This document shows positions 1 through 12,727 of a DNA stretch of 35,349 bases, piece by piece. The DNA is taken from assembly GCA_015490715.1 (NCBI GenBank), contig WFXH01000009.1, positions 1 through 35,349 of the forward strand, given 5' to 3'. The stretch comes from Saprospiraceae bacterium. GTDB taxonomy: Bacteria; Bacteroidota; Bacteroidia; Chitinophagales; Saprospiraceae. Made by a program: the position numbers and the translations under genes. Each line of letters begins with the position of its first letter. Positions within the stretch are counted from its first letter, which is position 1. Under the pieces are notes generated by a model. That model ran no database searches, was not told the origin of the DNA, and was given only the letters and a program-made list of their open reading frames with translations.

Positions 1-1088
1 AATCGCAACTCACGTCGTATTTGCCGAAGGTCTTCTTCGGTCGGCGTAAAGGGAAAATCTCGATACGGCTCACTCGGCCGATAGCTGCCGTAGGGACGCG
101 TACAGCCGGGCTCTCCATTGGCAGCTGGGCAGCCGTCCGTTTCGAAGGGATGACCGAAGTCCAGCGTTTTCAGGATTTTTTCCACATCCGTACCCAAAAT
201 CTTCAACCGCGCGATGTTGCCGTCGTCGTCCAGGCCGATAGCCTGGCGCGGCAAATCGTAGTTTTCGATGAGGTGTTTGACAAACTGTATGCGTCGCCAA
301 CGAGTGATCGGCGCCTTTGGATGGTTGCCCATCCGCGAGTCGGGCTCAGGATTGAAGGAAAACAAATAGGTGTAGATTTGATGCTCCTTGAGGTGATAAA
401 ATAGATCGATCAGCTCTGCATCGGTTTCGCCCAGACCCACCACGGCATGCACGTTGACTTTCCATGGACCGAAGATGTCGCGTGAGGCGTAGATGATATC
501 CCAGTAATTGTCCCAACGCAATCCTCCTTTGGGCACGTTTGTGCGCGTGTCGAAGAAGACGCGCTCACTGACCGCATCCAATCCCACTCCGATCATGTCG
601 GCACCGGCGTCTTTAAAGGTCTGCAGCTTAGTGCGATTGAGCGTGGGCGGCGCCACCAACAGGCTCAATGGCGTCTTCACCCGACGCGTAATGCGCTGCG
701 TGATGTCTAAAGTGTCTTTGTATGCCCTGCCATGGGTCACCATCGATATGCAGAGGCGCGTCATGTAGGGCTCATAACGAGCTATCCGCTCAATGACTAA
801 GTCCGTCTCATACAGCGGCCAGTCCACGCGGATAAATGAGCGATCTTCGTAATGCCCTGGGCGCGTACGCGCTAACCCACAATAGCCGCAGTCGGAATAA
901 CATCCGTCTTCGTAATTGAGCAGCAGGTTGATACCCCCAAAGGCAAAATCCCGCGCAAAGCGCCCGGATTTCAGCCGCAAAGCCATGGCACTGGCCGCGC
1001 TAATGCGCACATAGTCGGGACTGTATTTGCGCTCTTCTTCGTGTTGAACGACTGGTAAGGGTATCTTGCCTTCTTCGATGACTAACAT
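1..1088 (-). CDS. lipS2: Radical SAM lipoyl synthase component LipS2-like (3' end outside window)
   Basis: The frame is open from an ATG at 1088 to the left edge, giving 362 codons with no stop, so the C-terminus is missing. Residues 63-70 form the radical SAM motif CX3CX2C (C63, C67, C70, in CYSDCGYC), followed by GLAR. The length and the biotin-synthase-like sequence with no biotin genes nearby fit LipS2. This enzyme works with LipS1 to insert the two sulfurs of lipoate into an octanoyl chain on a carrier protein. The start lies 13 bases after the stop of the lipoate ligase, so it belongs to the sHdr operon. Assignment as LipS2 rather than LipS1 rests on remembered sequence character and is less certain than the radical SAM call. 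Automatic pipelines often label such proteins biotin synthase. Confidence 0.8.
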   Translation of the reverse strand, partial: MLVIEEGKIPLPVVQHEEERKYSPDYVRISAASAMALRLKSGRFARDFAFGGINLLLNYEDGCYSDCGYCGLARTRPGHYEDRSFIRVDWPLYETDLVIERIARYEPYMTRLCISMVTHGRAYKDTLDITQRITRRVKTPLSLLVAPPTLNRTKLQTFKDAGADMIGVGLDAVSERVFFDTRTNVPKGGLRWDNYWDIIYASRDIFGPWKVNVHAVVGLGETDAELIDLFYHLKEHQIYTYLFSFNPEPDSRMGNHPKAPITRWRRIQFVKHLIENYDLPRQAIGLDDDGNIARLKILGTDVEKILKTLDFGHPFETDGCPAANGEPGCTRPYGSYRPSEPYRDFPFTPTEEDLRQIRRELR

Positions 1089-1101
1089 AGCTCGATCGAT
1101 T

Positions 1102-2253
1102 TTATACCGTTTGTTTTTCGCTCAGTTTCGGATAATAACACGACCCATCGTAGTGGTAATGCATCTCCACATGGGCCTTTCGCACGGCTGCCTTGATGAG
1201 CCGGACGATGTTTTTTACTTCCACAGGCACCTCCATGCCCATGTCCCTGCACCGTTCTACCACCTTTTCGAGCGTTGCGCGCAGGCGGCCTTCTTCGGCA
1301 CTCGACCACTTGAGCGCAGCTTCCACTTCACTGAAGAAGCGCTCTCCATGCAAGAAGTCGCCCGTAATCAAGGCACTCTTGATCAAATCGCCCTTGACGG
1401 CGACGTAGGCGCGCAATAGGCCGGCGGGCGTCTTCATCACCGCCATGCCCGTCATGTCCTCTCCCGGAGCATATTGCCGCAACCAATCGGGGTGCCGATA
1501 TTTCTCCTCGGCAAGTTGTTTGATTTGTTCTTTTTCCGCCTCAGTCCAACCACTTGTCTGCCAATGTGCGGGAAACTGCGTCTCGTACGCCTGCCGTAGG
1601 AGCGCCTTGAGCTCCTCCATGGTAATAGACCCTGAGGTTTCGCGCTTGAGTGTAGTGATGCGATCGTAAACGGATTGGATGCCCTTGCGATCGGCGTACT
1701 TTCGAAGCGGTATCTTGAGTATCCGCAGCATGAGCTCGACATCTAAGTCGTAGAGGAGACTGGTATGAAATTGTACAGCACCCGAAGGGCTGAGATAGAT
1801 GCCCAGCCCCGCGATTTTCTTGCCCTGTACTTCCAGGTCGTTTTTTGATCGAAACTGCACTGCTAATCCAAGAGATTGTAAGACATCGACGATGGGTTGC
1901 GCCAGTTGGTGATACAGCTCGCGAATGTGATGCCATTGAAAGAGGTTGGGCCTGGCAGTGAGGCAGATGCCGAGCTGATCCGGACCCATGATGATCGCAC
2001 CGCCTCCTGTGAGCCTGCGGCTGTATTCGATGTCCTGTGCCTCACAATAGGCCAAGTCGACCTCCGCTTCGAGGTTTTGAAAGCGACCTACCAAAGCACA
2101 ATGCGGCCTGTAGGTATAGAGCCGAAGGCAGAGATCCACCTTGCCATCCCTGTCGTAGAGCGCAGTCAACAGCTCATCGGCTGCCAGGCCCTCCGCAGCT
2201 CGAACATTGGTATCTTCTATGTAGCGCGCATACCATTTCATACCTCCCGACAT
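1102..2253 (-). CDS. Lipoate-protein ligase of the sLpl(AB) type
   Basis: A 383-residue protein with an N-terminal LplA catalytic fold. It shows the RRLTGGGA signature at 79-86 and the KKIAG motif at 145-149, which contains the lipoyl-AMP-binding lysine. A C-terminal accessory (LplB-like) domain starts near residue 280. It should attach octanoate or lipoate to the LbpA carriers. In sHdr organisms this ligase type is encoded next to lipS1 and lipS2, exactly as here. The ATG at 2253 directly follows the TGA of lipS1. An in-frame ATG at 2241 (giving MKWYAR...) is an alternative start, but the GGGAGGT just before it leaves no spacing for ribosome binding. Substrate choice (LbpA rather than GcvH) is inferred from context. 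Confidence 0.88.
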   Translation of the reverse strand: MSGGMKWYARYIEDTNVRAAEGLAADELLTALYDRDGKVDLCLRLYTYRPHCALVGRFQNLEAEVDLAYCEAQDIEYSRRLTGGGAIIMGPDQLGICLTARPNLFQWHHIRELYHQLAQPIVDVLQSLGLAVQFRSKNDLEVQGKKIAGLGIYLSPSGAVQFHTSLLYDLDVELMLRILKIPLRKYADRKGIQSVYDRITTLKRETSGSITMEELKALLRQAYETQFPAHWQTSGWTEAEKEQIKQLAEEKYRHPDWLRQYAPGEDMTGMAVMKTPAGLLRAYVAVKGDLIKSALITGDFLHGERFFSEVEAALKWSSAEEGRLRATLEKVVERCRDMGMEVPVEVKNIVRLIKAAVRKAHVEMHYHYDGSCYYPKLSEKQTV

Positions 2254-3222
2254 TCACTCCACGCCACACGAGCAGGCATTTTCGTAATACTCTGGTGTCA
2301 GTCCCTTGTCGATAGCGTACTGTACGATACCCTCCGCGGGATAGGCGATGCCGTTGAGACCTGCATCGATGGCTGCTCGGTCGACCTCGACTTTGTATTT
2401 GCCCTGTGGTCGAGCGCATCCCAACATGACGTAATCGTCGGCAATGGTCAAGCGCGCATCGGCAAAGAAATTGGATACTTCCTCCACCGAAGGAAGGTCG
2501 ATGTTCCACATGGCTGTGCCGTAGAGCGGAGTGATGATGACGAGCACTAAGGCATGACGCGGATAGCGAGCAATCATTTCTAAGGCCTTCCATTCGCCGA
2601 GGAGCTGGCCGTAGTGGAGGCCAAGGATAATATGCGGTCGCAAGCTCAACTCGTACTTACTCAACCAATACAGGGCGCGATCGAAATCGCGCGTCGTCGC
2701 CTCGAGGTGGTAGACTTTGCGTATGGTCTCGTCGGAACCAATGATGTCGAGTGCCACTCCGTCGACCCCTGCTTCGCTCAAGGCTCGGGCCTGCGCTTCA
2801 CTGCGTATCAGCCCCGTATGCATGATGATTTTCATGCCCAACTCTTCGCGGACACGTGCGATTTGGTCGATATACGGCATAAAAGGCACTTCGCCGGTCT
2901 TGAGGGACCCGCCGCTGAGAAGAATGCCCTCCGTGCCTCCTTCCTTCAAGCGCTTGCACATCTCGAAGAGCCCTTCGCGCTTGTCGAGGGCAAGCATGGG
3001 CTCGAGGATCTTTTTTTCGCAATGGTCGCAATTGAGCGCACAGCCCTTCCCCGTCAGGCTGACCGAGACAAACTGGCGGGGATTGGCCTGACACATCTCA
3101 TCCGTCGCGTACGATTTCAATCCGGGGTTGTAAAATTTTATCCCCTTCCCAAAATGGGCCAAACGTAGCTCAAAGGCGCGTTCCAACTTTTGTGGTATGT
3201 CTGTGAGTACCTGCATCGTCAT
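2254..3222 (-). CDS. lipS1: Radical SAM lipoyl synthase component LipS1-like
   Basis: A 322-residue radical SAM protein. The CX3CX2C cluster motif is GCALNCDHCEKK, early in the protein, followed by a TIM-barrel-like sequence (SGGSL, HTGL, ALDIIGSD). The start is placed at ATG 3222 because it overlaps the lbpA stop as ATGA, a translational-coupling arrangement; upstream in-frame codons to 3258 lie within lbpA. The partner radical SAM gene sits two genes downstream. Together they would replace the single-enzyme LipA route and build lipoate directly on LbpA. Which of the two radical SAM genes is LipS1 and which LipS2 is a judgement by sequence character. The C-terminus ends in a CSCGVE tail. Confidence 0.8.
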   Translation of the reverse strand: MTMQVLTDIPQKLERAFELRLAHFGKGIKFYNPGLKSYATDEMCQANPRQFVSVSLTGKGCALNCDHCEKKILEPMLALDKREGLFEMCKRLKEGGTEGILLSGGSLKTGEVPFMPYIDQIARVREELGMKIIMHTGLIRSEAQARALSEAGVDGVALDIIGSDETIRKVYHLEATTRDFDRALYWLSKYELSLRPHIILGLHYGQLLGEWKALEMIARYPRHALVLVIITPLYGTAMWNIDLPSVEEVSNFFADARLTIADDYVMLGCARPQGKYKVEVDRAAIDAGLNGIAYPAEGIVQYAIDKGLTPEYYENACSCGVE

Positions 3223-3671
3223 TCGGCTATCCAACCCTTTTGCTGCATCTTCTTCCACTCGCCTTCAAACCACTGGCGGATGTTGTCCACGCCAGCGACG
3301 AGGTGGTCAAACTCGTCTTGCATGTTGGTGAGCTGCACCTGTACGAGCCATCCCTTTCCGTAGGGGTCTGTATTGAGCAGTCGCGGATTGTGAAGTACCT
3401 CCTGATTGACGGCTACAATCTTTCCAGAGACGGGCATGCGCAGATGCCCCACGTGTTTTTCCGCTTCAATTTTGCCAAAGACCGCACCGCGCTCTAAGGT
3501 ATCGTCTTCGGCGTCGATTTGTAAGGCGACAAAGGTGCCGCTGGATTCCTCCAGTAGCGGGCTGACACCAATAGTGGCGAGATCCCCTTCGGGTCGTATC
3601 CACAAATACGTATCGGGATCGTATAGTACATCGGTGCGTATGACGGGCATATCGACTTTTTTATCGGCCAT
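3219..3671 (-). CDS. lbpA: Lipoate-binding protein LbpA (GcvH-like), copy next to lipS1
   Basis: A 150-residue protein of the GcvH/biotinyl-lipoyl fold. The modification site is K72, in the hairpin IEAEKHVGHLRMPVSG, where the lipoyl-lysine motif is followed by the usual P-x-S-G turn. GcvH is normally near 125-130 residues; the extra C-terminal helix (DNIRQWFEGEWKKM) is typical of carriers that are not part of the glycine cleavage system. No gcvT or gcvP gene is present. It lies between the fused Hdr subunit and lipS1, so it is the probable lipoate carrier and sulfur-substrate carrier of the sHdr complex. A second LbpA is encoded at 8797-9267; the two are clearly diverged. Confidence 0.88.
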   Translation of the reverse strand: MADKKVDMPVIRTDVLYDPDTYLWIRPEGDLATIGVSPLLEESSGTFVALQIDAEDDTLERGAVFGKIEAEKHVGHLRMPVSGKIVAVNQEVLHNPRLLNTDPYGKGWLVQVQLTNMQDEFDHLVAGVDNIRQWFEGEWKKMQQKGWIAE

Positions 3672-3698
3672 AGTGCTGAGTTTTTATGTTTGGTCTAT

Positions 3699-4973
3699 TT
3701 ATCCCATTGCTTCCTTGATCAATTCAGCGATATCGCGTACGATGATCTTACCTTCGTTGCCGGTCGACTTGACGGCATCTTCAAAGCGGGACACTTCGTA
3801 AGGACAGCAGACGACGAGCACGTCGGCTCCCGTAGCGACGGCTTCTTTGATGCGATTTTCCGAGAGGCGCTCTTTGATGTGGTCGGCCATAAAGCCGTCG
3901 AGCCACATCCCGCCACCTCCGCCGCCACAGCAATAACTCTGCTCGCGACAGCGTCCCATTTCGACAAATTCTACTCCCGGCAGTGCTTCAATCAGCTTGC
4001 GCGGAGCATCGTATTCGCCGTTGTGACGGCCCAAATAGCACGGATCGTGAAAGGTCACCTTGTAATTGAGCGTCTTCTTCCACTCGATCTTGTCGATTAG
4101 CGGCGCTAAAAACGTCGTGTAGTGCACCACCTCAAACTCCCCGCCGTACTTGGGATATTCCTTGCGCAAGGCATTGAGCGCATGGGGATCGGTGGTGAGG
4201 ATTTTATTAAACTTGTATTTCTTCAGCGTTTTGATATTGTGTTCGGCAAACTCTTCAAACAGGCCGACCTCTCCCGCCAGGCGCTGCGAATCACACGAAC
4301 ACTTCTCCTCCACGCCGAGGATGCCGAAGTCGACGCCGAGCCGCACTAAGATTTCTGCCAGCGCCTTTGTCGCATCCTTACTGCGGTGGTGGTATGCCGG
4401 ATAGCATTCGACAAACCACAGCACGTCGACTGGACGATTGATTTCCTTCATGATGGGTACTTCCACCGATACCTCTTTCGTCCAATCGGCTCGCTTTCGC
4501 GGAGATTCGCCCAGTGGATTGCCGTATTCAAAGGTGTTTTCAAAGGCCTCTTGCAGCTCGTCGGGTACCTGGCCCTCCATGACGGCTTCGGCACGCACGG
4601 CAGGCATGATGTCGATCATGTTGACATCTTTGGGGCACACCCGAAGGCAATTCATACAAGTGGTGCATTTCCACAGATCAGGGCTTTCAAACAAGTCGAT
4701 GCCGTACTGTAGATTGCGGTATATCTTGCGCGGACCGTATTCTCCTCCGACAGTATCCACCGGACAGACGGGCACGCACTGCCCACACTGATAACACCAT
4801 CCCATCGACTCTGCCCCGGGAATGGACGTCACCTTGTCGAGCATGGAAGTGTCGTAGTCAAAGATGACGCGCTGCTCAAACATGCGGTTCCATTCCCGCG
4901 AGAGCTCTATGCCGTCTACGACGACCTTTTCCTTTTCAATGATCCTGTCTTTTTCGACATTTAATCTTGCCAT
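3699..4973 (-). CDS. Fused sHdrC2-B2 (HdrD-like) iron-sulfur subunit
   Basis: A 424-residue protein. Residues 60-113 carry two [4Fe-4S] ferredoxin motifs (C60-C63-C66-C70 and C103-C106-C109-C113). From about residue 180 there are two cysteine-rich CCG-type domains. The second is intact in form (C312, C342, C348-C349 followed by a run of six glycines, C389-C390). The first is degenerate: C190 and CSC at 225-227, with TTDPHALN at 260-267 where related proteins usually have a CPHC pair. In classical sHdr clusters C2 and B2 are separate genes; here they form one HdrD-like chain, as in type II clusters (sHdrB3). It should pass electrons between the Hdr-like core and an electron acceptor. It sits directly downstream of shdrH. 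Confidence 0.85.
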   Translation of the reverse strand: MARLNVEKDRIIEKEKVVVDGIELSREWNRMFEQRVIFDYDTSMLDKVTSIPGAESMGWCYQCGQCVPVCPVDTVGGEYGPRKIYRNLQYGIDLFESPDLWKCTTCMNCLRVCPKDVNMIDIMPAVRAEAVMEGQVPDELQEAFENTFEYGNPLGESPRKRADWTKEVSVEVPIMKEINRPVDVLWFVECYPAYHHRSKDATKALAEILVRLGVDFGILGVEEKCSCDSQRLAGEVGLFEEFAEHNIKTLKKYKFNKILTTDPHALNALRKEYPKYGGEFEVVHYTTFLAPLIDKIEWKKTLNYKVTFHDPCYLGRHNGEYDAPRKLIEALPGVEFVEMGRCREQSYCCGGGGGGMWLDGFMADHIKERLSENRIKEAVATGADVLVVCCPYEVSRFEDAVKSTGNEGKIIVRDIAELIKEAMG

Positions 4974-4994
4974 ATGCTCTTACTTTTCTCCAAG

Positions 4995-5744
4995 TCAATT
5001 AGACATTGCTGTATTGGTCAGGTGTTGTACGCCCAAAAGGCGACGGGTAAACTCCGTCATGGTGGGCATCACCTGATTGAATTCCTGTGTCATGCGCATG
5101 CGCAGCACGGTATAGGCATAGATGACGTAGACGCAGCTCAAGAAGACATGCGTACCAAAGAGGTCGCGGCTAATCGTCTGGAATCCCGCTGCATCGCCCA
5201 CTTCGTGGACGAAGGCGATGCCCTTGCCTATGCTGGTGTACTTCTCGCCGGGCGTGCGGCCTTCGACGACATAGTTTTCGGTAGTGACCAGGGGTAGTGC
5301 ACCCGTAGAGGTCTTTTCATCCCAGATCCACCGAGTCCAGAGCCAGTACTGCTCGGGGAAGACGTAGTGGAGGAATTCCGATGCGATTTCTACGCGCAGG
5401 CGCGGGCTGATCCACGGCACGCGCTGGATGAAGGCATCGACCCGTGCCGAAACGGGCCCCTTGTCGTAGAGGAGAGTTTGCAGCGCGTTGCGGAAGGCCT
5501 CCACCTTTTCGGGCTCTTTGATCCATTGATTGCGCCTACGCATGGCGAAAATCATGGACGTCAGCTGTTCGAGCTGAGCGGTCGACAGCGCGCGGACGGC
5601 ATCGGCAGAGCCGAGCGCTTCTTGAAAGCGTCGGCTCTTCTCACGGAGCAGATCCACCGTCTCCTCTAAGGATCCAGGGCGGATCTTTTCCATCGTCTCC
5701 TTCATAAATTCGATGGCCGTCTTTGTGTCGACGATATTGCCCAT
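4995..5744 (-). CDS. shdrH: sHdrH, conserved sHdr-cluster protein without known fold function
   Basis: A 249-residue soluble protein with no cofactor motif, no cysteine cluster and no signal peptide. It is rich in charged helices in the N-terminal half, followed by tryptophan-rich segments (QYWLWTRWIWDEK near residues 132-144). Its position between the HdrA-like gene and the C2/B2 gene is exactly that of the hyp/shdrH gene in other sHdr clusters, and this is the main basis for the call. The biochemical role of sHdrH is not established. It is spaced 18 bases from shdrA and 21 from the fused subunit, so it is co-transcribed. Confidence 0.75.
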   Translation of the reverse strand: MGNIVDTKTAIEFMKETMEKIRPGSLEETVDLLREKSRRFQEALGSADAVRALSTAQLEQLTSMIFAMRRRNQWIKEPEKVEAFRNALQTLLYDKGPVSARVDAFIQRVPWISPRLRVEIASEFLHYVFPEQYWLWTRWIWDEKTSTGALPLVTTENYVVEGRTPGEKYTSIGKGIAFVHEVGDAAGFQTISRDLFGTHVFLSCVYVIYAYTVLRMRMTQEFNQVMPTMTEFTRRLLGVQHLTNTAMSN

Positions 5745-5762
5745 ATGTCGTGCACCTTATGA

Positions 5763-6824
5763 TTAAGCCGTCACTGCTTCGAGTTTGCGCAGGGCGGCCA
5801 TGGCTTTGACAGCCGCAAGTCCCCCCGCGGAAACGCTATCCTCCAAATCCGCCGGGCCCGTACAAGCTCCCGCTGCAAACACGCCGGGCACATTGGTCGA
5901 TACCGTATCGAGTGGCCCTCCGATGGTCTCTATAAAACCGTACTTGTTTTGCTTGAGGCCGAAGATGCGCGCCATTTCCTTGGTGCCTTCACTGGGCTCC
6001 ATGCCCACGGCGAGGATGACCACATCCATTTCTACCTCCATGGGTCTGCGGAAGGTCGTATCTTCTCCCTTGACCAAGAGCTTATCGCCCTTGCGCACGA
6101 TCTCGGTGGCTATTCCCTTGATGTAATTGACTTTGTACTCCTCCTGTGCCTTCCAGTAGATTTCGTTTTCCCAATACCCGTACATGCGCATGTCGATGTA
6201 GAAGATAAACACCTTGCAGTCGGGGATGAGCTTTTTGATTTCGATGGACTGCTTGGAGGAGATGCCGCAGCACACCTTCGAGCAGTACTCATTGCCGAGG
6301 CGTCGATCGCGGCTCCCCACGCACTGGATAAAGCAGACGCGCTTGGGCACTTCTCCGTTGGAAGGACGGACGAACTTGCCTTCACTGAGCATCTTTTCGG
6401 CATCGGTCAAGGTGATGACGTCGTCGAACTCGTAGTACCCGTATTTCTGGGTTTCGCGTCCTGGGTCGAAGTGTTGAAATCCCGTGGCGATGATGACAGC
6501 TCCCGCCTTGATCTCGACCTCCTTGCCGAGCTGTACCCCCTTCAGGGTAAAATCACCCAGAGCACCCTCGGCATCGGTGATGAGGGTGTTGTACATGATT
6601 TCGACATTGGGGTGATTTTCGATGGGGGCGATCAACTCGCGTAGAGCCGTCTGCGTATCGCGCAAGTCGGGCGTCAATGCCGCGTATTTCTGCTCATCGG
6701 GCGTGCCGCCCAGGCGATCGCGCTTTTCAATCAAGATGGCCTTAAATCCGAGCTCGGCCACTCCCTTGGCCGCCTCAATGCCGGCGGGCCCTCCTCCAAT
6801 GATGGCTACTGTTTGCGTCGTCAT
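5763..6824 (-). CDS. shdrA: sHdrA, FAD-binding Hdr-like subunit
   Basis: A 353-residue flavoprotein. The N-terminal dinucleotide-binding motif is IIGGGPAGIEAAKG (residues 8-21), and a second nucleotide region ends in GVFAAGACTGP (314-323). An HdrA-type cysteine set lies in the insertion: C164, C168, C181, C185, C186. The start is ATG 6824; the open frame continues upstream to 6866 with an ATG there, but that falls close to the shdrB1 stop and lacks family similarity. It is far shorter than methanogen HdrA (about 650 residues or more) and lacks the extra ferredoxin domains, as expected for the sulfur-oxidising form. It is the flavin centre of the complex. Alternative labels such as thioredoxin reductase or CoA-disulfide reductase do not fit the cysteine set. 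Confidence 0.9.
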   Translation of the reverse strand: MTTQTVAIIGGGPAGIEAAKGVAELGFKAILIEKRDRLGGTPDEQKYAALTPDLRDTQTALRELIAPIENHPNVEIMYNTLITDAEGALGDFTLKGVQLGKEVEIKAGAVIIATGFQHFDPGRETQKYGYYEFDDVITLTDAEKMLSEGKFVRPSNGEVPKRVCFIQCVGSRDRRLGNEYCSKVCCGISSKQSIEIKKLIPDCKVFIFYIDMRMYGYWENEIYWKAQEEYKVNYIKGIATEIVRKGDKLLVKGEDTTFRRPMEVEMDVVILAVGMEPSEGTKEMARIFGLKQNKYGFIETIGGPLDTVSTNVPGVFAAGACTGPADLEDSVSAGGLAAVKAMAALRKLEAVTA

Positions 6825-6866
6825 ATGGCTTGATCTTTTTTGTCGATACTCTACGACTATGCACAA

Positions 6867-8054
6867 TCACGCATCGGCATCTTCCCAAGTGAGATAGGCC
6901 TTCTCGCCTTTTCGGATTTTTTCGCATTCGGCTTCGAATTCGTCCCATTTCTTTTTCCAGTCGATGCCGAGCTTTTCGAGAAACGGCTTGTTGTTCGTAT
7001 TGTGCCAGTGCAGCTGGAGTACTTTGTACGGATGGGCACCCATGGCCAGTGCAGCCATCTGGGAATCCGACATTACGGGCACTCCGACCTTCTTTCCGTG
7101 GGCTTTGGCGGCAAACTGACTTTGGTCCAGCGTCGTCACACAGCCCGTATCGTGGGTAACTACTACATCGGGATTGGCCTCTTCTTTCATCACCTCGATC
7201 TTTCGCTGCACGGCAAAGGAACGCGAAAAGTCTCGGGATACCAGTATGTGGCGGAAGCCAAATCCACAGCAGTCAAACCACGTGGAATAGTCCTTCACCT
7301 GCACACCGAGCGCCTGGAGCGTACCCGTCACGATAGCCGTGCGCTGAGCTCCGTAGATCTCCTCGGAGTAGATGGCGTCTTCTTCGATGAGCTTGTGGTA
7401 ATGACAGGCGGGGTGTACGGTCGCCACGATGTGGCTCATGTCGATGACCTGCCTTTCGGCAATGCGATCGCGCATGGCGTATACCCACTCGCTGTAGTGC
7501 ACAATCTCCTCGGGTATGACAAAGGGCAAGCCCAGTCGGTCCATGATCTTTTTGACCTTTCGGCGCAATTCGGGCTGATGTACCAGGGCATGACGTACTT
7601 CCTTGTAGTGCCCAAAGCTCGTACCGCAGTGGATCAAGGGGAAATACCCCGTCTTATAGGCAGAGGCAAAGTTGCGGATGGCCACTGCTGCCTGTGCCTC
7701 GGGGTTGGAGGTGGCCGAAGCGTAGTAGTTCCATGCCGTACACGAAGTCTGATTGGTCGGATCGTGGTAGTCGAGACCAAATTGGCGGTTGAGCCAAAAG
7801 ATCGAGGTCGAATACCCGGGTATGTGTCCACACTGTCCACAGCTCTTGTGGTGCCAGGTCTTCTCCAGCGGAATCTTCTTGATGCGGCCGTATTTGGTCT
7901 TTACTTCGAAGTACGGTTCAGGTACGCGTTGGACGATCCATTCCCCTTCCTTCTCGAGTTGGAATATCTCATCCTTCAGGTCGTGCGTGGGAGCCTGAGA
8001 GGGATCGGTTTCCCATTTTCGGTCCGTTGCCTTGAGAATAGGTAGATGTATCAT
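6867..8054 (-). CDS. shdrB1: sHdrB1, CCG-domain subunit
   Basis: A 395-residue protein related to heterodisulfide reductase subunit B, which binds non-cubane [4Fe-4S] clusters in CCG domains. Cysteines visible are C72 and C75 (SCGQCG), C105, C143, then C217, C262-C263 (DCCGFGF) and C305. The second half therefore keeps a C...CC...C pattern, while the first half has single cysteines (SCTAW, HCGTS) where a CC pair is usual. It is about 100 residues longer than classical HdrB, with an N-terminal extension of about 65 residues and a C-terminal tail. The ATG at 8054 is preferred because the upstream ATG at 8102 lies inside shdrC1. It is predicted to hold the active-site cluster where the sulfur substrate is handled. 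Confidence 0.87.
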   Translation of the reverse strand: MIHLPILKATDRKWETDPSQAPTHDLKDEIFQLEKEGEWIVQRVPEPYFEVKTKYGRIKKIPLEKTWHHKSCGQCGHIPGYSTSIFWLNRQFGLDYHDPTNQTSCTAWNYYASATSNPEAQAAVAIRNFASAYKTGYFPLIHCGTSFGHYKEVRHALVHQPELRRKVKKIMDRLGLPFVIPEEIVHYSEWVYAMRDRIAERQVIDMSHIVATVHPACHYHKLIEEDAIYSEEIYGAQRTAIVTGTLQALGVQVKDYSTWFDCCGFGFRHILVSRDFSRSFAVQRKIEVMKEEANPDVVVTHDTGCVTTLDQSQFAAKAHGKKVGVPVMSDSQMAALAMGAHPYKVLQLHWHNTNNKPFLEKLGIDWKKKWDEFEAECEKIRKGEKAYLTWEDADA

Positions 8055-8073
8055 GGCTATGAAGTTTTTATGG

Positions 8074-8784
8074 TTAGTCAAAGGTGACGTCGTAACCGGC
8101 ATCTTCGAGGCGCTCTTCCATGACGTCGACGAGGATCATGTAGAGGCCTTCGTCGATCTGTTCGATCATGTCCATCACGCCGGTCATATGCCAGATGAGA
8201 TAGAGTTCGATCAGCGTCTTTTCGTCGACCTTCCATCCCGTCTCGGTAGTATGCAGTGTCTCGGGGGGAAGGGCTTTGCGCCATACTTCGAGGTGTTCGG
8301 ATATTTCATTGACATGTCCGCCCCAGTCGGGGAAGGCGTTGGGCTGAAGCATGTCTGGAGACACTTGCGTACCAGTCGACATGATCTTGTAGATGATCCG
8401 CCCATAGCCTTCGAGGGCCTCCTTCGCCGACTGTAGACCGTTGCGCACGGCCACTTCCCGCATGACGGTGATGATCTGCCCCGGCGAATTTCCACGCGGA
8501 CAGCGGTCGCAAGAGAAGCACTGCGAACAGTCCCAGACACTGTCGTTCATCAAGGTATAGAGCAGATCCACATCTTCCCGCGCCGCCGCTTGAGCAATGA
8601 TGCGCGGACTAAAATCGTAAAAGCGCGCCGACGGACACGAGGCCACGCATATGCCGCATTCGTAGCATCCATAGAGCACATGCGGCCAGCGCTCATCCGA
8701 TTTCATCTCGTTAAAGAGACGCTCCTTCTCCTCGTACGGAACGTCGGCATATTTATTGGCGGATAAATCCAGTGCGAATTCCAT
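8074..8784 (-). CDS. shdrC1: sHdrC1, ferredoxin-type subunit
   Basis: A 236-residue protein with two [4Fe-4S] motifs near the N-terminus: C40-C43-C46-C50 (CYECGICVASCP) and C86-C89-C92-C95 (CSQCFSCDRCP). The second has only two residues before the last cysteine instead of the usual three. The helical C-terminal half has no cofactor motif. HdrC proteins pass electrons between the HdrB and HdrA subunits. It is followed by shdrB1, and preceded by lbpA with a 12-base gap, so the core order C1-B1-A-H-(C2B2) is intact. Confidence 0.88.
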   Translation of the reverse strand: MEFALDLSANKYADVPYEEKERLFNEMKSDERWPHVLYGCYECGICVASCPSARFYDFSPRIIAQAAAREDVDLLYTLMNDSVWDCSQCFSCDRCPRGNSPGQIITVMREVAVRNGLQSAKEALEGYGRIIYKIMSTGTQVSPDMLQPNAFPDWGGHVNEISEHLEVWRKALPPETLHTTETGWKVDEKTLIELYLIWHMTGVMDMIEQIDEGLYMILVDVMEERLEDAGYDVTFD

Positions 8785-8796
8785 AGTTTGACGATT

Positions 8797-9267
8797 TTAG
8801 TCTTCGTAGCTATCCGTGCCTTCGAGATGCGTACACTGCAATCCTTCGGCTTCGATTTTTTCGCGATATTTGGCTACTGCTTCATCGCCTGTGACCAGGT
8901 CTTTGAGCTCTTCGTCGAGATTGTCGGGCTTGAGCTTGACAACCCAGCCCTTGCGATATGGGCTCTTGTTGAGAAGTTTCGGATCATTTTCGAGCTCTTC
9001 ATTGATTTCGGCGATTTCTCCCGATACGGGGGCCTTGATCGGTCCTACCCATTTACCACTTTCAACCGTCGCTATGGGCTTTCCGCGCTTGCGGTACATG
9101 CCGATCTTCTTGGTCTTGGCGTGCAAGATGGGCCCGGCAAGCGATTGAGCAATATCGGTCATCCCAACCGTCACCGTGCCGTCGTCGTTGAGCTTAACCC
9201 ACGTATTGTCTTCTACCTTGTAATAGAGGTCTTTGGGAATGACGCAATTATTCACTCGCTCTACCAT
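8797..9267 (-). CDS. lbpA: Lipoate-binding protein LbpA (GcvH-like), copy upstream of shdrC1
   Basis: A 156-residue GcvH-fold protein with the lipoyl-lysine K72 in VESGKWVGPIKAPVSGE. This is closer to the usual GcvH hairpin (ESGK...PxSG) than the other copy at 3219-3671. The C-terminal part (DLVTGDEAVAKYREKIEAEG) is longer than in GcvH. It is encoded at the head of the Hdr subunit block, whereas the other copy is at its end. Having two carriers fits sHdr loci known to hold lbpA1 and lbpA2. Which copy serves catalysis is not decidable from sequence. Confidence 0.88.
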   Translation of the reverse strand: MVERVNNCVIPKDLYYKVEDNTWVKLNDDGTVTVGMTDIAQSLAGPILHAKTKKIGMYRKRGKPIATVESGKWVGPIKAPVSGEIAEINEELENDPKLLNKSPYRKGWVVKLKPDNLDEELKDLVTGDEAVAKYREKIEAEGLQCTHLEGTDSYED

Positions 9268-9279
9268 AATCCGCTGATT

Positions 9280-9657
9280 TTAAAAGTACATGACGTGATC
9301 ATAGCTCAAAGCCAAATCGATGATACTGGTGGCACCGAGTATCTCTACGCCGTCGATGAGGTCGTCGGGCGTCATATTCCAGAGGTTGAGGCTCTGCTGG
9401 CAGACGGCGAGCTTGACGTCGTTGTCCAAACACATCTGCAGCATGTCTTTGAGACACACATTACTCGACGGATCGAGTTTGATCATTTCAGCAACTCCTT
9501 TGCGCAGCTGATTGGTGCCGTTCATCGTAAACCATACCATGACTTCCATCTCCATGGCGGCTGCGGCCACGGCGTAATACAGCGGCGAATACGTGCGCGT
9601 AGGAGCTTCTACGCCGTGGGTCTGAATGACCAGTATCTTTTTTCCTTCCAGCTCCAT
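9280..9657 (-). CDS. DsrE-family sulfur carrier (short form, DsrE3C-like)
   Basis: A 125-residue single-domain DsrE-fold protein: an N-terminal strand (KKILVIQTHG), a small-residue helix (AVAAAAMEM) and a conserved cysteine at C86 in KLAVCQQSLNL, the usual position of the persulfide-carrying cysteine. Further cysteines are C68 and C76. DsrE proteins accept and hand on sulfane sulfur, usually with TusA. It is encoded between the ligase-like gene and lbpA, gaps of 13 and 12 bases. The subtype (DsrE3C) is inferred from size and association with tusA and shdr genes and should be treated as tentative. Confidence 0.78.
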   Translation of the reverse strand: MELEGKKILVIQTHGVEAPTRTYSPLYYAVAAAAMEMEVMVWFTMNGTNQLRKGVAEMIKLDPSSNVCLKDMLQMCLDNDVKLAVCQQSLNLWNMTPDDLIDGVEILGATSIIDLALSYDHVMYF

Positions 9658-9670
9658 AGGTCTATGCGTT

Positions 9671-10759
9671 TTACTTTGGTTTTGTCTGATCGATGCGTTT
9701 GATCTCTTCGATACACGTTTGAAGCCATCGTCTTAATTCGCCATCGATGGCTGGATGGATTACGGAGACTGCCAAATCCGCTATTGGCATGCCGTCCCAC
9801 CGATGTACGATTTCCTGAATTGCCGAGCCATCGTCCACACCTTCGACGGCCATCCACTTGGGATGGCGGATGCGTTCCTCGTGGATTTCGAAGAGCAGGC
9901 TTCCTCGGTCTGGCCACTTCAGCTGTGCGATGTAATGCTGTGCGCATACTTTGACGATGCGATCCGAGCTGCGTTTGCGGCGGTAGTGGAACAACCACGC
10001 TGGCGTGGACATTTCCCTATCGAGCTGCCGCATCGCTGTGCGCTCTTCTTCGGTAAAGGCCCCGCTCTCTATGCGGATGTGTGGCCAGAGTTGCTTCACC
10101 GCATCCAAGTAGCGCTGTCGCATCTCGGGCCAAGGCGGAAGGTGTTGCATCAGCTTAGAGAGCGTCGTCATCTTTTGCTGTACGCGCTGGCGGAAGCGCT
10201 CTCGAAAAGCCTCGCTGGGTGCGCGTAAGATTTTAGACATCCGGGCGAAGTCGAAGTCGAAGAGGAAGTTGCCCGTGATGATTTCGGCATGGCCGATGGT
10301 GGCTGCGCCCAGTCCCGCTATCTTTTTGCCCTCTACTTGGATGTCGTTGGGCTCTACATAGCGGGCATCGAGGCCGTAGCTGCGGAGCACTTCGATCATG
10401 GGCTGCGCAAAGAGCCGAAAGCGGTCTTGCACCCTCCACGGCAGCGACTTTGGATCAAAGACCCACTGGACAAAGACTTGTCCATCGTCTACCAACACCG
10501 TGCCGCCGCCCTGCTCCCTCCGTATTACGGGCAGCCCCTGCCGCGCGCAATACTCCAAATCCACCTGCTCTTCCGCATCCTGAAAATACCCTATGCACAC
10601 ATAGGCATCACTCGGCTTTGCAAAGACTATCGTATTGGGCACTCCCGGCTTTCGGCAATGCCCCAACGCGTGGTATATGGTCTGCGATCGTATGCCCGAG
10701 ACTCGACCGGCATCGATCCAGCGTATGTACTGCACCTTTTCAAATAAATAGGCTGACAT
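9671..10759 (-). CDS. Second lipoate-protein-ligase-like protein
   Basis: A 362-residue LplA-fold protein with a C-terminal accessory region. The signature RREQGGG (residues 80-86) and KKIAG (145-149) with the nucleotide-binding lysine are present, so it could be an active ligase or acyltransferase. It differs from the other ligase at 1102-2253: the Ser/Thr before GGG is a glutamine, and the segment after it (TVLVDDGQ) is also different. The start is uncertain because all candidates overlap the end of the upstream dsrE gene: ATG at 10765, ATG at 10759 (used here) or GTG just after that stop. It may serve the second LbpA or transfer octanoate between carriers. Neither role can be proved from sequence. 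Confidence 0.78.
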   Translation of the reverse strand: MSAYLFEKVQYIRWIDAGRVSGIRSQTIYHALGHCRKPGVPNTIVFAKPSDAYVCIGYFQDAEEQVDLEYCARQGLPVIRREQGGGTVLVDDGQVFVQWVFDPKSLPWRVQDRFRLFAQPMIEVLRSYGLDARYVEPNDIQVEGKKIAGLGAATIGHAEIITGNFLFDFDFARMSKILRAPSEAFRERFRQRVQQKMTTLSKLMQHLPPWPEMRQRYLDAVKQLWPHIRIESGAFTEEERTAMRQLDREMSTPAWLFHYRRKRSSDRIVKVCAQHYIAQLKWPDRGSLLFEIHEERIRHPKWMAVEGVDDGSAIQEIVHRWDGMPIADLAVSVIHPAIDGELRRWLQTCIEEIKRIDQTKPK

Positions 10760-11255
10760 CGGCATCGGCGGCAAACTCCAAAAATGTCGCCGCCCCTCCG
10801 ATCTCTATACCATCTATGAAATCTTCCTTCTTAAACCCAAAGACGTCCATCGTCATCTGGCAGGCGATGAGCCGCACACCCAGCTCCAAACACATCTCGC
10901 GCAGCTCTTCGACCGTTGCCACGCCCTTATTCTTAAAGGTCTTCTTCATCAAGCCCGTAGCCATGGCTTCAAACCACGGCACGTTGCTCATGATCAAATT
11001 GGGTATGGGCCAGTTGATCTTCTGAAACCACTCGGGACCAAAAGGCATGTTCATCGGCATGGCTGGATTGCCCAGCGGGGATACTTGCGCACTGATCTTC
11101 GGCTTGAGCAACGGAAGTCCGTAAAAGGTAAAAAATATCGCTACATCCCAATCCATCGATGCAGCACCCGAGGCCAGTATGAAAGGCGGATAAGCCCAGT
11201 CTAAAGTGCCGCGACTGGCAATGAGCGCTAAGCGACGTCTCTTTTCTTCGGCCAT
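10740..11255 (-). CDS. DsrE-family protein of the longer (DrsE_2/DsrE3A-like) type
   Basis: A 171-residue protein of the DsrE/DsrF/DrsH-like superfamily. It opens with a strand (RLALIASRG), has a hydrophobic middle (DVAIFFTFYGL) and a conserved segment LIACQMTMDVFG with C132, the probable sulfur-carrying cysteine; C122 lies nearby. The insertion rich in M, P and N at residues 60-95 is characteristic of this longer subfamily, which often sits beside tusA in sulfur oxidisers. It is 11 bases downstream of tusA and its 3' end overlaps the next gene. A sulfurtransferase relay with TusA is the likely role. Confidence 0.83.
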   Translation of the reverse strand: MAEEKRRRLALIASRGTLDWAYPPFILASGAASMDWDVAIFFTFYGLPLLKPKISAQVSPLGNPAMPMNMPFGPEWFQKINWPIPNLIMSNVPWFEAMATGLMKKTFKNKGVATVEELREMCLELGVRLIACQMTMDVFGFKKEDFIDGIEIGGAATFLEFAADADVSLFI

Positions 11256-11266
11256 GGCTCAAACGT

Positions 11267-11512
11267 TTAATGCGTCTTCTTGATCAAAAAGCGATATTCA
11301 CCATTGCCGAGGTCTTCTGCTACCAACAACTCGTGTCCCGTTTGCTTTGCCCAAGCCTTCATGTCGGGAATCGATCCGGGATCCGTCGAAATCATCTCTA
11401 AAATATCGCCTACCTTGAGCTTCTTGATGGCAATCTTGGTCTTCACAACGGGCATCGGACAACACAGCCCCTTGCAGTCGAGCGTTTCCGTAATTTCATA
11501 TTGCGCACTCAT
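11267..11512 (-). CDS. tusA: TusA sulfur carrier protein
   Basis: An 81-residue TusA/SirA-family protein. The CPxP motif is C18-P-M-P, in the segment LDCKGLCCPMPVVKTK, with a second cysteine immediately before it and another at residue 13. The ATG at 11512 gives a normal TusA length; the open frame reaches further upstream to 11614 but that part overlaps arsR and has no TusA similarity. TusA receives persulfide sulfur and passes it to DsrE partners and, in sulfur oxidisers, towards the sHdr complex. It lies 16 bases after the repressor gene and is the first enzyme-type gene of the operon. Confidence 0.93.
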   Translation of the reverse strand: MSAQYEITETLDCKGLCCPMPVVKTKIAIKKLKVGDILEMISTDPGSIPDMKAWAKQTGHELLVAEDLGNGEYRFLIKKTH

Positions 11513-11528
11513 GGCTATAGCGTTTGGT

Positions 11529-11837
11529 TTAGTATTCGATGTTGCACCGCTGCATACACCGCAGCACCTCCAACAACTCGGGAATGGCAATGCGATAGTA
11601 AATGCGCCTGCCATCCCGACGCGACGCCAGTATCCGCTTGTCCTTCATCTTGATCAAATGCTGCGAAATCTGCGCCTGCTCGCGCGCCAAGGCCTCCTGC
11701 AGCTTCGCCACCGACAGCTCCCCGTACTCCTTCAACAATTCCAAAATCTCCAGGCGCACGGGGTGCGCTATCACCCGCAAAATGTCTGCTATCCGCTCAA
11801 GCTTTGCCGGATGAATCTTGTTCGCTACTTCCAACAT
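11529..11837 (-). CDS. ArsR-family repressor, probable sHdr operon regulator (sHdrR-like)
   Basis: A 102-residue winged-helix ArsR/SmtB protein. The core is HPVRLEILELL, then a recognition region REQAQISQHLIKMKD and the beta-wing SRRDGRRIYYRI. The usual metal or redox cysteine before the recognition helix (ELCVCDL-type) is absent; the equivalent is ELSVAKL. The only cysteines are C94 and C98 in the last helix (CMQRC), four residues from the C-terminus. Related repressors of sulfur oxidation (sHdrR, SoxR) use a pair of cysteines that react with sulfane sulfur. It is first in the operon and overlaps with no gene, with a promoter and likely operator just upstream. Control of the whole sHdr operon is inferred. 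Confidence 0.85.
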   Translation of the reverse strand: MLEVANKIHPAKLERIADILRVIAHPVRLEILELLKEYGELSVAKLQEALAREQAQISQHLIKMKDKRILASRRDGRRIYYRIAIPELLEVLRCMQRCNIEY

Positions 11838-11863
11838 CTACCTCGTTTTTGCGGCCTAAAGAT

Positions 11864-11891
11864 ATGCAAATATATGCATATGTACATGCAT
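11864..11891. promoter_or_regulatory. Candidate ArsR operator: three ATGCA boxes
   Basis: ATGCA begins at 11864, 11874 and 11886. The second box is the centre of the perfect palindrome ATATGCATAT (11872-11881). Boxes 2 and 3 extend to ATGCAT, so boxes 1-2 and 2-3 both form inverted repeats. The cluster covers the -7 element and spacer of the promoter, so a bound repressor would block RNA polymerase. Symmetric AT-rich sites like this are typical for ArsR/SmtB proteins. The link to the adjacent repressor is inferred from position. Confidence 0.55.
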
Positions 11892-11899
11892 CGTGCCAA
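11867..11899 (-). promoter_or_regulatory. Bacteroidota-type promoter of the sHdr operon
   Basis: On the minus strand a TTG (11899-11897) and TATATTTG (11874-11867) are separated by 22 bases, matching the phylum consensus TTG-N(19-22)-TAnnTTTG. Transcription would start near 11860, about 20 bases before the repressor ATG at 11837. This is the only strong promoter seen upstream of the operon. Confidence 0.7.
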
Positions 11900-12014
11900 A
11901 AAATTATTTCTACGCACCTGCCGCGCGCCGCCTTTTGAAGTACTTCCAAGGCCTACTATTTCATACTAAATCAAGAATTTCACCATTTTATGTATGAAAT
12001 TGTTCGATGATGTG

Positions 12015-12022
12015 TATCTTTG
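12015..12022 (+). promoter_or_regulatory. -7 promoter element upstream of the SPOR gene
   Basis: TATCTTTG matches TAnnTTTG, 82 bases before the ATG at 12104. No TTG lies at the correct -33 distance. An inverted repeat, ATTTCATAC at 11958-11966 and GTATGAAAT at 11992-12000, sits just upstream and might be regulatory. Confidence 0.45.
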
Positions 12023-12103
12023 CAGCCGTAAAGATTTTTTTGCCAACATATCCGACCAACCTGCCTGAACGAAGTATTTCATAAACCGTAAAATCGCAAC
12101 TGT

Positions 12104-12727
12104 ATGAAACCGTGGTTAAAGTATTTGCTCTACGCCATAGCTGCTGTCGTCCTCACAATTTGGGTTATGGCCCTCGTCCGAAACTGCGGTGGGAATACCG
12201 ACGAGACGCATTCGAACGTCACCGCCGACACTAACGACGGCATCACCGAAGAGGAAATCAACCTCGAATCGCTCATCGAAGAGGAAGAAGCGTCTTTTTC
12301 TGAAGACCAGACCGATCAATCCTCTACGCCGGCAGAAACCACAGCCCCCGCCTCTTCCACACAAACAGACGACGCCACAGAATCGCCCACCTCAATCGTC
12401 GAAGAGAGCACTGAGGTCAACACTGAGGAGGAGCAGCCCTCTCAGGAGGCCACCCCACCCAAGACAGCGCCTTCGTCTTCTTCCGCTTCGACGGGCGAGT
12501 ACATGGTCATCGTGGGCAACTTCGTCGTGCCGACCAATGCCGAAAAGCTCGCGCGCAAACTTCGGGGTATGGGCTACGACGATGCCGAGGTCGTGGTCTT
12601 CGACTTTTCGGAATACCACACCGTCATCGCAGGGCGTTATAGCAGCCGTAGTCAAGCTGAAAAGATCAGAAATGCGCTTCGACGAAAGGGATTCCGCGAC
12701 GCCTACGTCCATAAAAAGAAACACTAA
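12104..12727 (+). CDS. SPOR-domain membrane protein
   Basis: A 207-residue protein with one N-terminal transmembrane helix (residues 8-25). A long acidic, Ser/Thr/Pro/Glu-rich linker (about 35-130) follows, then a C-terminal SPOR domain (about 131-204; YMVIVGNFVVPTNAEKLARKL opening, GRYSSRSQAEKI in the second half). SPOR domains bind denuded glycan strands of peptidoglycan, so the protein is probably anchored in the inner membrane with the domain in the periplasm, working at the cell wall or septum. It is divergent from the sHdr operon and its stop overlaps the next gene, so the two are coupled. Confidence 0.85.
   Translation: MKPWLKYLLYAIAAVVLTIWVMALVRNCGGNTDETHSNVTADTNDGITEEEINLESLIEEEEASFSEDQTDQSSTPAETTAPASSTQTDDATESPTSIVEESTEVNTEEEQPSQEATPPKTAPSSSSASTGEYMVIVGNFVVPTNAEKLARKLRGMGYDDAEVVVFDFSEYHTVIAGRYSSRSQAEKIRNALRRKGFRDAYVHKKKH

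Follow-up and report, generated by a model that had tools for sequence, protein, structure and literature searches.

A type II sHdr-LbpA gene cluster with two kinds of lipoyl carrier in a Saprospiraceae bacterium

Can bacteria of the Saprospiraceae, a family generally portrayed, like its Cytophagia relatives, as degrading polymers, oxidise sulfur in their cytoplasm? The question is raised by contig WFXH01000009.1 of a Saprospiraceae bacterium (GenBank assembly GCA_015490715.1), analysed here over its entire 35,349 nucleotides (hereafter the window; contig C9 of the genome). Positions 1-11837 are spanned by 15 close-set genes, all on the minus strand, whose neighbours share up to 40 bases or are separated by no more than 42. 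The initial annotation read them as a self-contained sHdr sulfur-oxidation operon; the run is indeed unbroken, and Pfam and NCBIfam profile searches of the window proteins, complemented by PDB sequence matches, recover the expected families. Self-contained it is not: LipS2 runs off the contig end, and through its overlap with a second contig, C55, the cluster continues with etfB, etfA and an EMO-type gene, which brings it to 18 genes. We consider it very likely that these genes encode a complete type II sHdr-LbpA system that oxidises sulfane sulfur in the cytoplasm of this bacterium, with the electron path and regulation proposed below. Gene content and order, the continuation onto C55, protein families, conserved residues and conservation in relatives are all observed here.

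By its published definition, type II sHdr combines shdrC1B1AHB3 and etfAB within one cluster (PMC11582611), and once C55 is joined the cluster is of this type and complete. The window provides sHdrC1, an Fe-S subunit (8074-8784; Pfam Fer4_8, 38.4 bits; NCBIfam HdrC, 83.1 bits, below the cut-off of 350); sHdrB1, the proposed catalytic CCG subunit (6867-8102; Pfam CCG, 39.9 bits); sHdrA, the FAD/Fe-S subunit (5763-6866, likely ATG start at 6824); sHdrH, or Hyp (4995-5744); and a single gene (3699-4973) for a protein of 424 amino acids (aa), in which Pfam detects Fer4 and two stretches of CCG. The core domains C1-B1-A-H-C2B2 of the initial annotation are therefore present, but C2B2 is the fused sHdrB3 (sHdrC2-sHdrB2) of type II, not the separate shdrC2 and shdrB2 genes of type I. 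Contig C55 was found by a search for electron transfer flavoprotein (ETF) alpha; its first 151 bases are exactly the reverse-complemented window start, and the link of etfAB to the window is this exact overlap, not reads. It carries the end of LipS2 (stop codon 168-170), etfB (ATG at 190), etfA and a gene for a 700-aa protein, after which comes a polA-like gene (named by eye). The 700-aa protein has Fer4 and CCG domains, a weak QmoC match over its N-terminal part (39.7 bits against a cut-off of 300) and, judged by eye, seems membrane-bound; at E<=1e-8 a single PDB entry matches it, the iron-sulfur-binding reductase 9ojn (residues 361-697), and we take the protein to belong with the EtfD/EMO-type ETF:menaquinone reductases. 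Among the best 80 loci of a genome-contig scan, which returned at least 588 stretches encoding a relative, a full fused B3 is found in 70 (none or a partial one in the remaining 10), both etf genes in 61 and an EMO-type protein in 56.

That the subunits are of the sulfur-oxidising kind, as the initial annotation held for a Bacteroidota bearing a type IX secretion system (T9SS), is borne out by sHdrA. Its best PDB match, 6tjr (292.9 bits), covers residues 20-361 of 367; methanogen HdrA trails it and aligns only from about residue 110. The PDB listing describes 6tjr as a fumarate reductase-type flavoprotein, and we take it to be the sHdrA of Hyphomicrobium denitrificans. sHdrB1 is 53-98% identical to four relatives and, at E<=1e-20, is matched once in the genome. 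For sHdrH, no Pfam or NCBIfam family was found; its AlphaFold2 model is all-helical and confident (predicted local distance difference test, pLDDT, 90.8) but resembles no PDB entry at E<=0.001, so that no function is read from the fold. The T9SS is represented in the window by a sorting domain (23.7 bits, cut-off 23) at the C-terminus of a 1427-aa protein (21996-26279), which has no Pfam match at 1e-5.

How might the system work? By analogy with studied homologues, TusA (11267-11512; Pfam TusA, 92.8 bits), a DsrE3A/DsrE2-type carrier (10740-11255; NCBIfam SulfCarrDsrE2, 216.7 bits, cut-off 210) and a small DsrE-family carrier (9280-9657; Pfam DsrE, 75.7 bits) would supply the sHdr complex (C1-B1-A-H-B3) and the cysteine-bearing LbpA with sulfane sulfur, and the sulfur would be oxidised to sulfite in the cytoplasm. 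These carrier assignments, like those of the two lipoyl carriers and the repressor, agree with the initial annotation; TusA is the sole PF01206 match in the genome and most likely starts at 11512, hence does not overlap the repressor. At two other Bacteroidota loci (L015 and L022), the TusA ORF joins two TusA domains, both of which contain CPMP. Electrons would pass from sHdrA to EtfAB, then to the EMO-type membrane Fe-S reductase encoded on C55 and finally to menaquinone, which is plausible because the domains of a thiamine pyrophosphate enzyme in the same window fit MenD, the name we assume for it. LipS1, LipS2 and the ligases would make and attach the lipoyl group, and the ArsR-type repressor, which has a CX3C pair, would switch the operon. 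An energy supplement to heterotrophic growth would seem more probable than autotrophy.

Several points weigh against this proposal. The functional role is assigned by homology, and LipS1 scores 218.9 bits, short of its NCBIfam cut-off of 230, although its context fits. No etf gene occurs in 18 of the 80 loci, most of them short stretches, and the 21-kb L057 lacks etf though it is not cut near the cluster. On the donor side, SoxZ was not found in the genome, a weak negative since no control matched either; YeeE/SoxT was not found in it, against matches in 6 of 14 controls; and no SQR/FCSD was recognised among its Pyr_redox_2 matches, by judgement rather than by test. Two of those 16 matches are sHdrA; the start of the open reading frame (ORF) was viewed for 13 of the other 14 (at L096 and L106 the one viewed was a neighbouring ORF), and families were run on L094, L096 and L097. 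No donor route is therefore seen, and thiosulfate, which the initial annotation had named as a substrate, finds no specific support. The lack of YeeE/SoxT does match a trait reported for type II, though not part of its definition (PMC11582611). Contig C61 (L113, 5780-10274) encodes a 955-aa molybdopterin oxidoreductase with no export signal visible and a fused 527-aa Fe-S/NrfD protein, which together could oxidise sulfite. The NCBIfam matches of the former are far below cut-off, and SoeA is a label we assume for it. Sequences matching it at E<=1e-20 occur in 24 of 60 related genomes, its own included. As a step tied to sHdr it was rejected: relatives 69-75% identical occur in 19 further genomes among the 60, and sHdrB1 is missing from every one of these.

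The same machinery could instead serve sulfane-sulfur homeostasis or survival in starvation, acting on the cell's own thiol sulfur rather than supporting growth on outside sulfur. The missing SoxZ, YeeE/SoxT and recognisable SQR/FCSD would fit such a role, as would the related 19-gene cluster of Thermomicrobium roseum, reported to be up 45-fold on average in persistence (PMC6776052). On the other hand, the system is patchy, with sHdrB1 in only 14 of 398 genomes of the family sample, which is ill-suited to general housekeeping. We regard this alternative as less likely than not.

The other explanations fare far worse. A self-contained type I operon (C1B1A-H-C2-B2) has in its favour that the window holds every core domain, but it is contradicted by the single 424-aa gene in place of C2 and B2 and by the C55 overlap: etfB, etfA and the EMO-type gene follow there and in relatives, and the nearest relatives carry fused B3. 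We judge it highly improbable. Contamination or a chimeric assembly might be feared in a draft of 115 contigs with the operon at a contig end, and the initial annotation had pointed to positions 11838-12104 as a possible chimeric junction. In another genome of the genus (G001), however, an 8182-bp contig is collinear with window positions 4223-12406 at 92.3% DNA identity and has the same junction, so a chimeric contig was rejected. Composition is continuous as well (GC 0.52-0.56 in the operon, 0.50-0.58 beyond), contamination of the genome (2.45 Mb, 98.58% complete) is 0.04%, and the polA-like gene lies beyond the operon on C55; chimerism is unlikely at this junction, and as an account of the cluster, contamination or chimera is scarcely credible. 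A methanogen-type or electron-bifurcating Hdr unrelated to sulfur oxidation, to which the HdrA-, HdrB- and HdrC-like domains might point, is very improbable, as the Hdr-like subunits fall far under the cut-offs of the methanogen NCBIfam models, the short sHdrA scores 270.5 against an HdrA2 cut-off of 1100 and matches 6tjr best, and TusA, DsrE and LbpA sit in the operon.

Why should an sHdr cluster hold two lipoyl carriers? The question is not new: 95 LbpAs were reported to share the lipoyl lysine and, save some archaeal ones, two cysteines absent from GcvH, and the reason for two LbpAs was called unexplained in 2018 (PMC6067878). Here, LbpA (Lbp_a, 8797-9267; Pfam GCV_H, 131.8 bits) has the lipoyl lysine, in ESGK, and both the N- and the C-terminal cysteine. 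The other carrier, Lbp_b (3219-3671; GCV_H, 86.7 bits), has the lysine, in EAEK, and zero cysteines, and is for this reason named only an LbpA-like carrier; a separate, ordinary GcvH is present in the genome. Carriers were aligned in 136 rows (near-copy sister L010 left out); six truncated or lysine-less ones were set aside, and in the remaining 130 the first cysteine was scored at a single alignment column and the second at any of three, with ORF 5' ends untrimmed. Neither cysteine occurs in any of the 21 carriers for which LipS1, Lpl1 or LipS2 is a nearest detected neighbour, whereas the other 109 have both (104), one (4) or none (1), the last being a Bacteroidota Lbp_b with the contig end directly after it (L011). 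The 22 rows without the pair, 16 of them cysteine-free and six with one or two cysteines elsewhere, comprise the window, 13 titled Bacteroidota, three Planctomycetota, one Calditrichota, one Acidobacteriota and three with no phylum listed (f35, KSB1 and a plain bacterium). They form one group (support 99); when the genome's own GcvH is added it joins them, with 99 for the join, 58 for the 22 alone and a long-branch warning. We infer a place for Lbp_b in lipoyl synthesis and not in the handling of sulfur, and the cysteine split suggests an assembly carrier separate from the sulfur-handling one.

Lbp_b is part of a lipoyl-synthesis block with lipS1 (2254-3258) and lipS2 (1-1088; Pfam Radical_SAM, 51.3 bits; truncated at its 3' end where the contig begins), both for radical SAM lipoyl synthase subunits, the latter named from gene context and from equally placed homologues, and between them Lpl1, an sLpl-like lipoate:protein ligase with a C-terminal domain (1102-2253; Pfam LplA-B_cat, 141.4, and Lip_prot_lig_C, 24.0 bits). 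The LipS1/LipS2/ligase set is thus present, but with two ligases rather than the one first annotated; the second, Lpl2 (9671-10774; LplA-B_cat, 129.6 bits; no Pfam match to the C-terminal domain), lies upstream in the operon. The order B3-Lbp_b-LipS1-Lpl1-LipS2-EtfB-EtfA recurs in 10 of the 80 loci, all titled Bacteroidota or a subgroup, including Saprospiraceae and Cyclobacteriaceae. Twenty-two ligase rows stand beside LipS1/LipS2 and 46 elsewhere, with two changes on the tree. The motif RRxxGGG and K146 are invariant in 23 of 23 Lpl1 sequences, as are RR..GGG and K151 in 45 of 45 of Lpl2. LipL-type enzymes use a cysteine. Lpl2, which might be a LipL-type amidotransferase, keeps the ligase signature yet has a near-invariant cysteine, C76 (44 of 45); Lpl1 too has one in a comparable position, C70 (20 of 23).

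A tentative scheme, which we hold to be possible but not probable, would make Lbp_b the scaffold of lipoyl assembly, with Lpl1 octanoylating it, LipS1 and LipS2 inserting the sulfurs and Lpl2 serving or refilling LbpA. A strict relay of this kind is opposed by the ligase signature kept in both Lpl1 and Lpl2, by L038, whose stretch contains the block but no Lpl2, and by L056 and L059, whose stretches contain LipS1/LipS2 but no Lbp_b. If the scaffold scheme were true, cofactor building and sulfur oxidation would be parted on two carriers, which would answer the two-LbpA question for these clusters; in any case, the split into cysteine-bearing and cysteine-less carriers makes that question (PMC6067878) directly testable.

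The repressor (11529-11837; NCBIfam HTH_metalloreg, 81.9 bits, cut-off 55) has as its only cysteines C94 and C98, a CX3C pair near the C-terminus, which is found in all 12 alignable repressors of Bacteroidota loci (window and near copy included) and in one of 14 ArsR-type ORFs of loci from other phyla; several further Bacteroidota loci showed no detectable repressor. sHdrR is reported to sense through Cys50 and Cys116, and many shdr-adjacent repressors to lack these two cysteines and perhaps to work otherwise (PMC12423496). The window repressor has C94/C98 instead of that pair, the sHdrR sequence itself not being in the alignment, which suggests a sulfur switch unlike sHdrR. Just upstream, a perfect inverted repeat with 7-base arms and a 6-base spacer (11862-11881) is a candidate operator; it is identical in the sister species, and elsewhere the repeats differ (judged by eye only).

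How widespread is the system? Other organisms carry it too. sHdrB1 is found in 2 of 60 relatives (its own genome and G001), in 14 of 398 genomes and 9 of 112 genera of the Saprospiraceae sample, its own included, and in 3 of 395 genomes of a phylum sample, again its own included. The other two phylum-sample carriers, one of them a single contig, both belong to family f35 of another class, in which both genomes sampled have it. Loci also occur in metagenome-assembled genomes (MAGs) titled Cyclobacteriaceae and Flammeovirgaceae, titles being taken at face value. Of ten further loci from the family scan, eight are the same DNA as contig-scan loci, four of these titled Saprospiraceae. Within one genus (g29; G544 and G029), sHdrB1 is present in one species and not in another, a pointer to recent gain or loss. 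Separately, an sHdrB1-like gene (54.5%) lies on three Acidithiobacillus ferrooxidans plasmids; on one (NZ_AP025161.1; L007, 787-4490) it is near genes for a GcvH-like carrier and hemerythrin/DUF2249 proteins, and the 16-kb stretch showed no further sHdr subunit. As to the genome itself, its 2.45 Mb is small for the family (2.8-11.2 Mb in genomes of other genera; some sHdrB1 carriers have 2.7-3.3 Mb), and contig C52 (L115, 780-4044) encodes a 624-aa multihaem cytochrome c7/c3-type protein beside a 462-aa Fe-S flavoprotein.

The history of the system in the phylum was addressed with a tree of 82 rows from concatenated C1, B1, A and B3 (1404 columns, LG+G4, quick method), built free of type I and methanogen outgroups. 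The scan held 19 loci titled Bacteroidota, of which L014, having just two of the four genes, was left out. Together with its sister, the window falls within a clade of 16 Bacteroidota rows (15 loci and the window; SH-like approximate likelihood ratio test 100), which contains a six-row clade (support 100) with five rows titled Cyclobacteriaceae or Flammeovirgaceae; sHdr therefore looks old within Saprospiraceae and Cytophagia. Three Bacteroidota-titled loci fall outside this core: L026 and L028 adjoin it together with Calditrichota, and L034 stands beside Planctomycetota. The two f35 rows cluster with SAR324 and Neomarinimicrobiota. Approximately unbiased (AU) tests rejected a single origin of all 19 named Bacteroidota rows (p 0.000176) and a clade of the 16-row core with the f35 pair (p 4.3e-29), p-values that are optimistic since the sets were picked after viewing the tree. 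So Bacteroidota gained sHdr at least twice, or transfer has mixed its history.

The initial annotation knew of no described case in a T9SS-bearing Bacteroidota, and our literature search likewise gave no account of sHdr in Saprospiraceae or other T9SS-type Bacteroidota, its scope lying outside preprints and most subscription papers. A GTDB-wide survey exists whose supplementary data may list such genomes (PMC11582611); another study places its sHdr MAGs in Proteobacteria (PMC12345210), and two more mention both sHdr and these groups, with no link between them in the accessible text (PMC13029343, PMC13283197). With the marker in 9 of 112 sampled genera, surveys based on sox, dsr or sqr alone could overlook possible sulfur oxidisers, and the second carrier may show how the lipoyl cofactor of the sHdr pathway is built.

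Set against known systems, the cluster has the core subunits, LbpA, LipS1/LipS2/sLpl and an ArsR-type repressor in common with the type I system of H. denitrificans (PMC10332631, PMC12423496), in which C2 and B2 are separate genes and whose definition lacks etfAB, whereas fused B3 and etfAB are found here. The repressor differs too: in place of the Cys50 and Cys116 of H. denitrificans sHdrR (PMC12423496), it has only the C-terminal CX3C pair. The GcvH-centred relay of Bacillus subtilis (LipM/LipL, PMC10332631), in which the lipoyl group is placed first on a GcvH-like carrier and then moved, offers a possible analogy to Lbp_b, although both ligases here retain the ligase signature. With the type II systems, namely Group III of PMC6067878 (Actinobacteria, Firmicutes) and the T. 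roseum cluster (PMC6776052), it shares sHdrC1B1AH, fused B3, etfBA, TusA, DsrE and LbpA in one cluster. What is new relative to known type II is the lipoyl block, the two-carrier split and the repressor. While the Thermomicrobium locus (L073) shows three cysteine-bearing LbpAs and one ligase, which the stretch end cuts, the Bacteroidota clusters carry Lbp_b, LipS1, Lpl1 and LipS2 between B3 and etfB, and have one carrier without the LbpA cysteines and two ligases.

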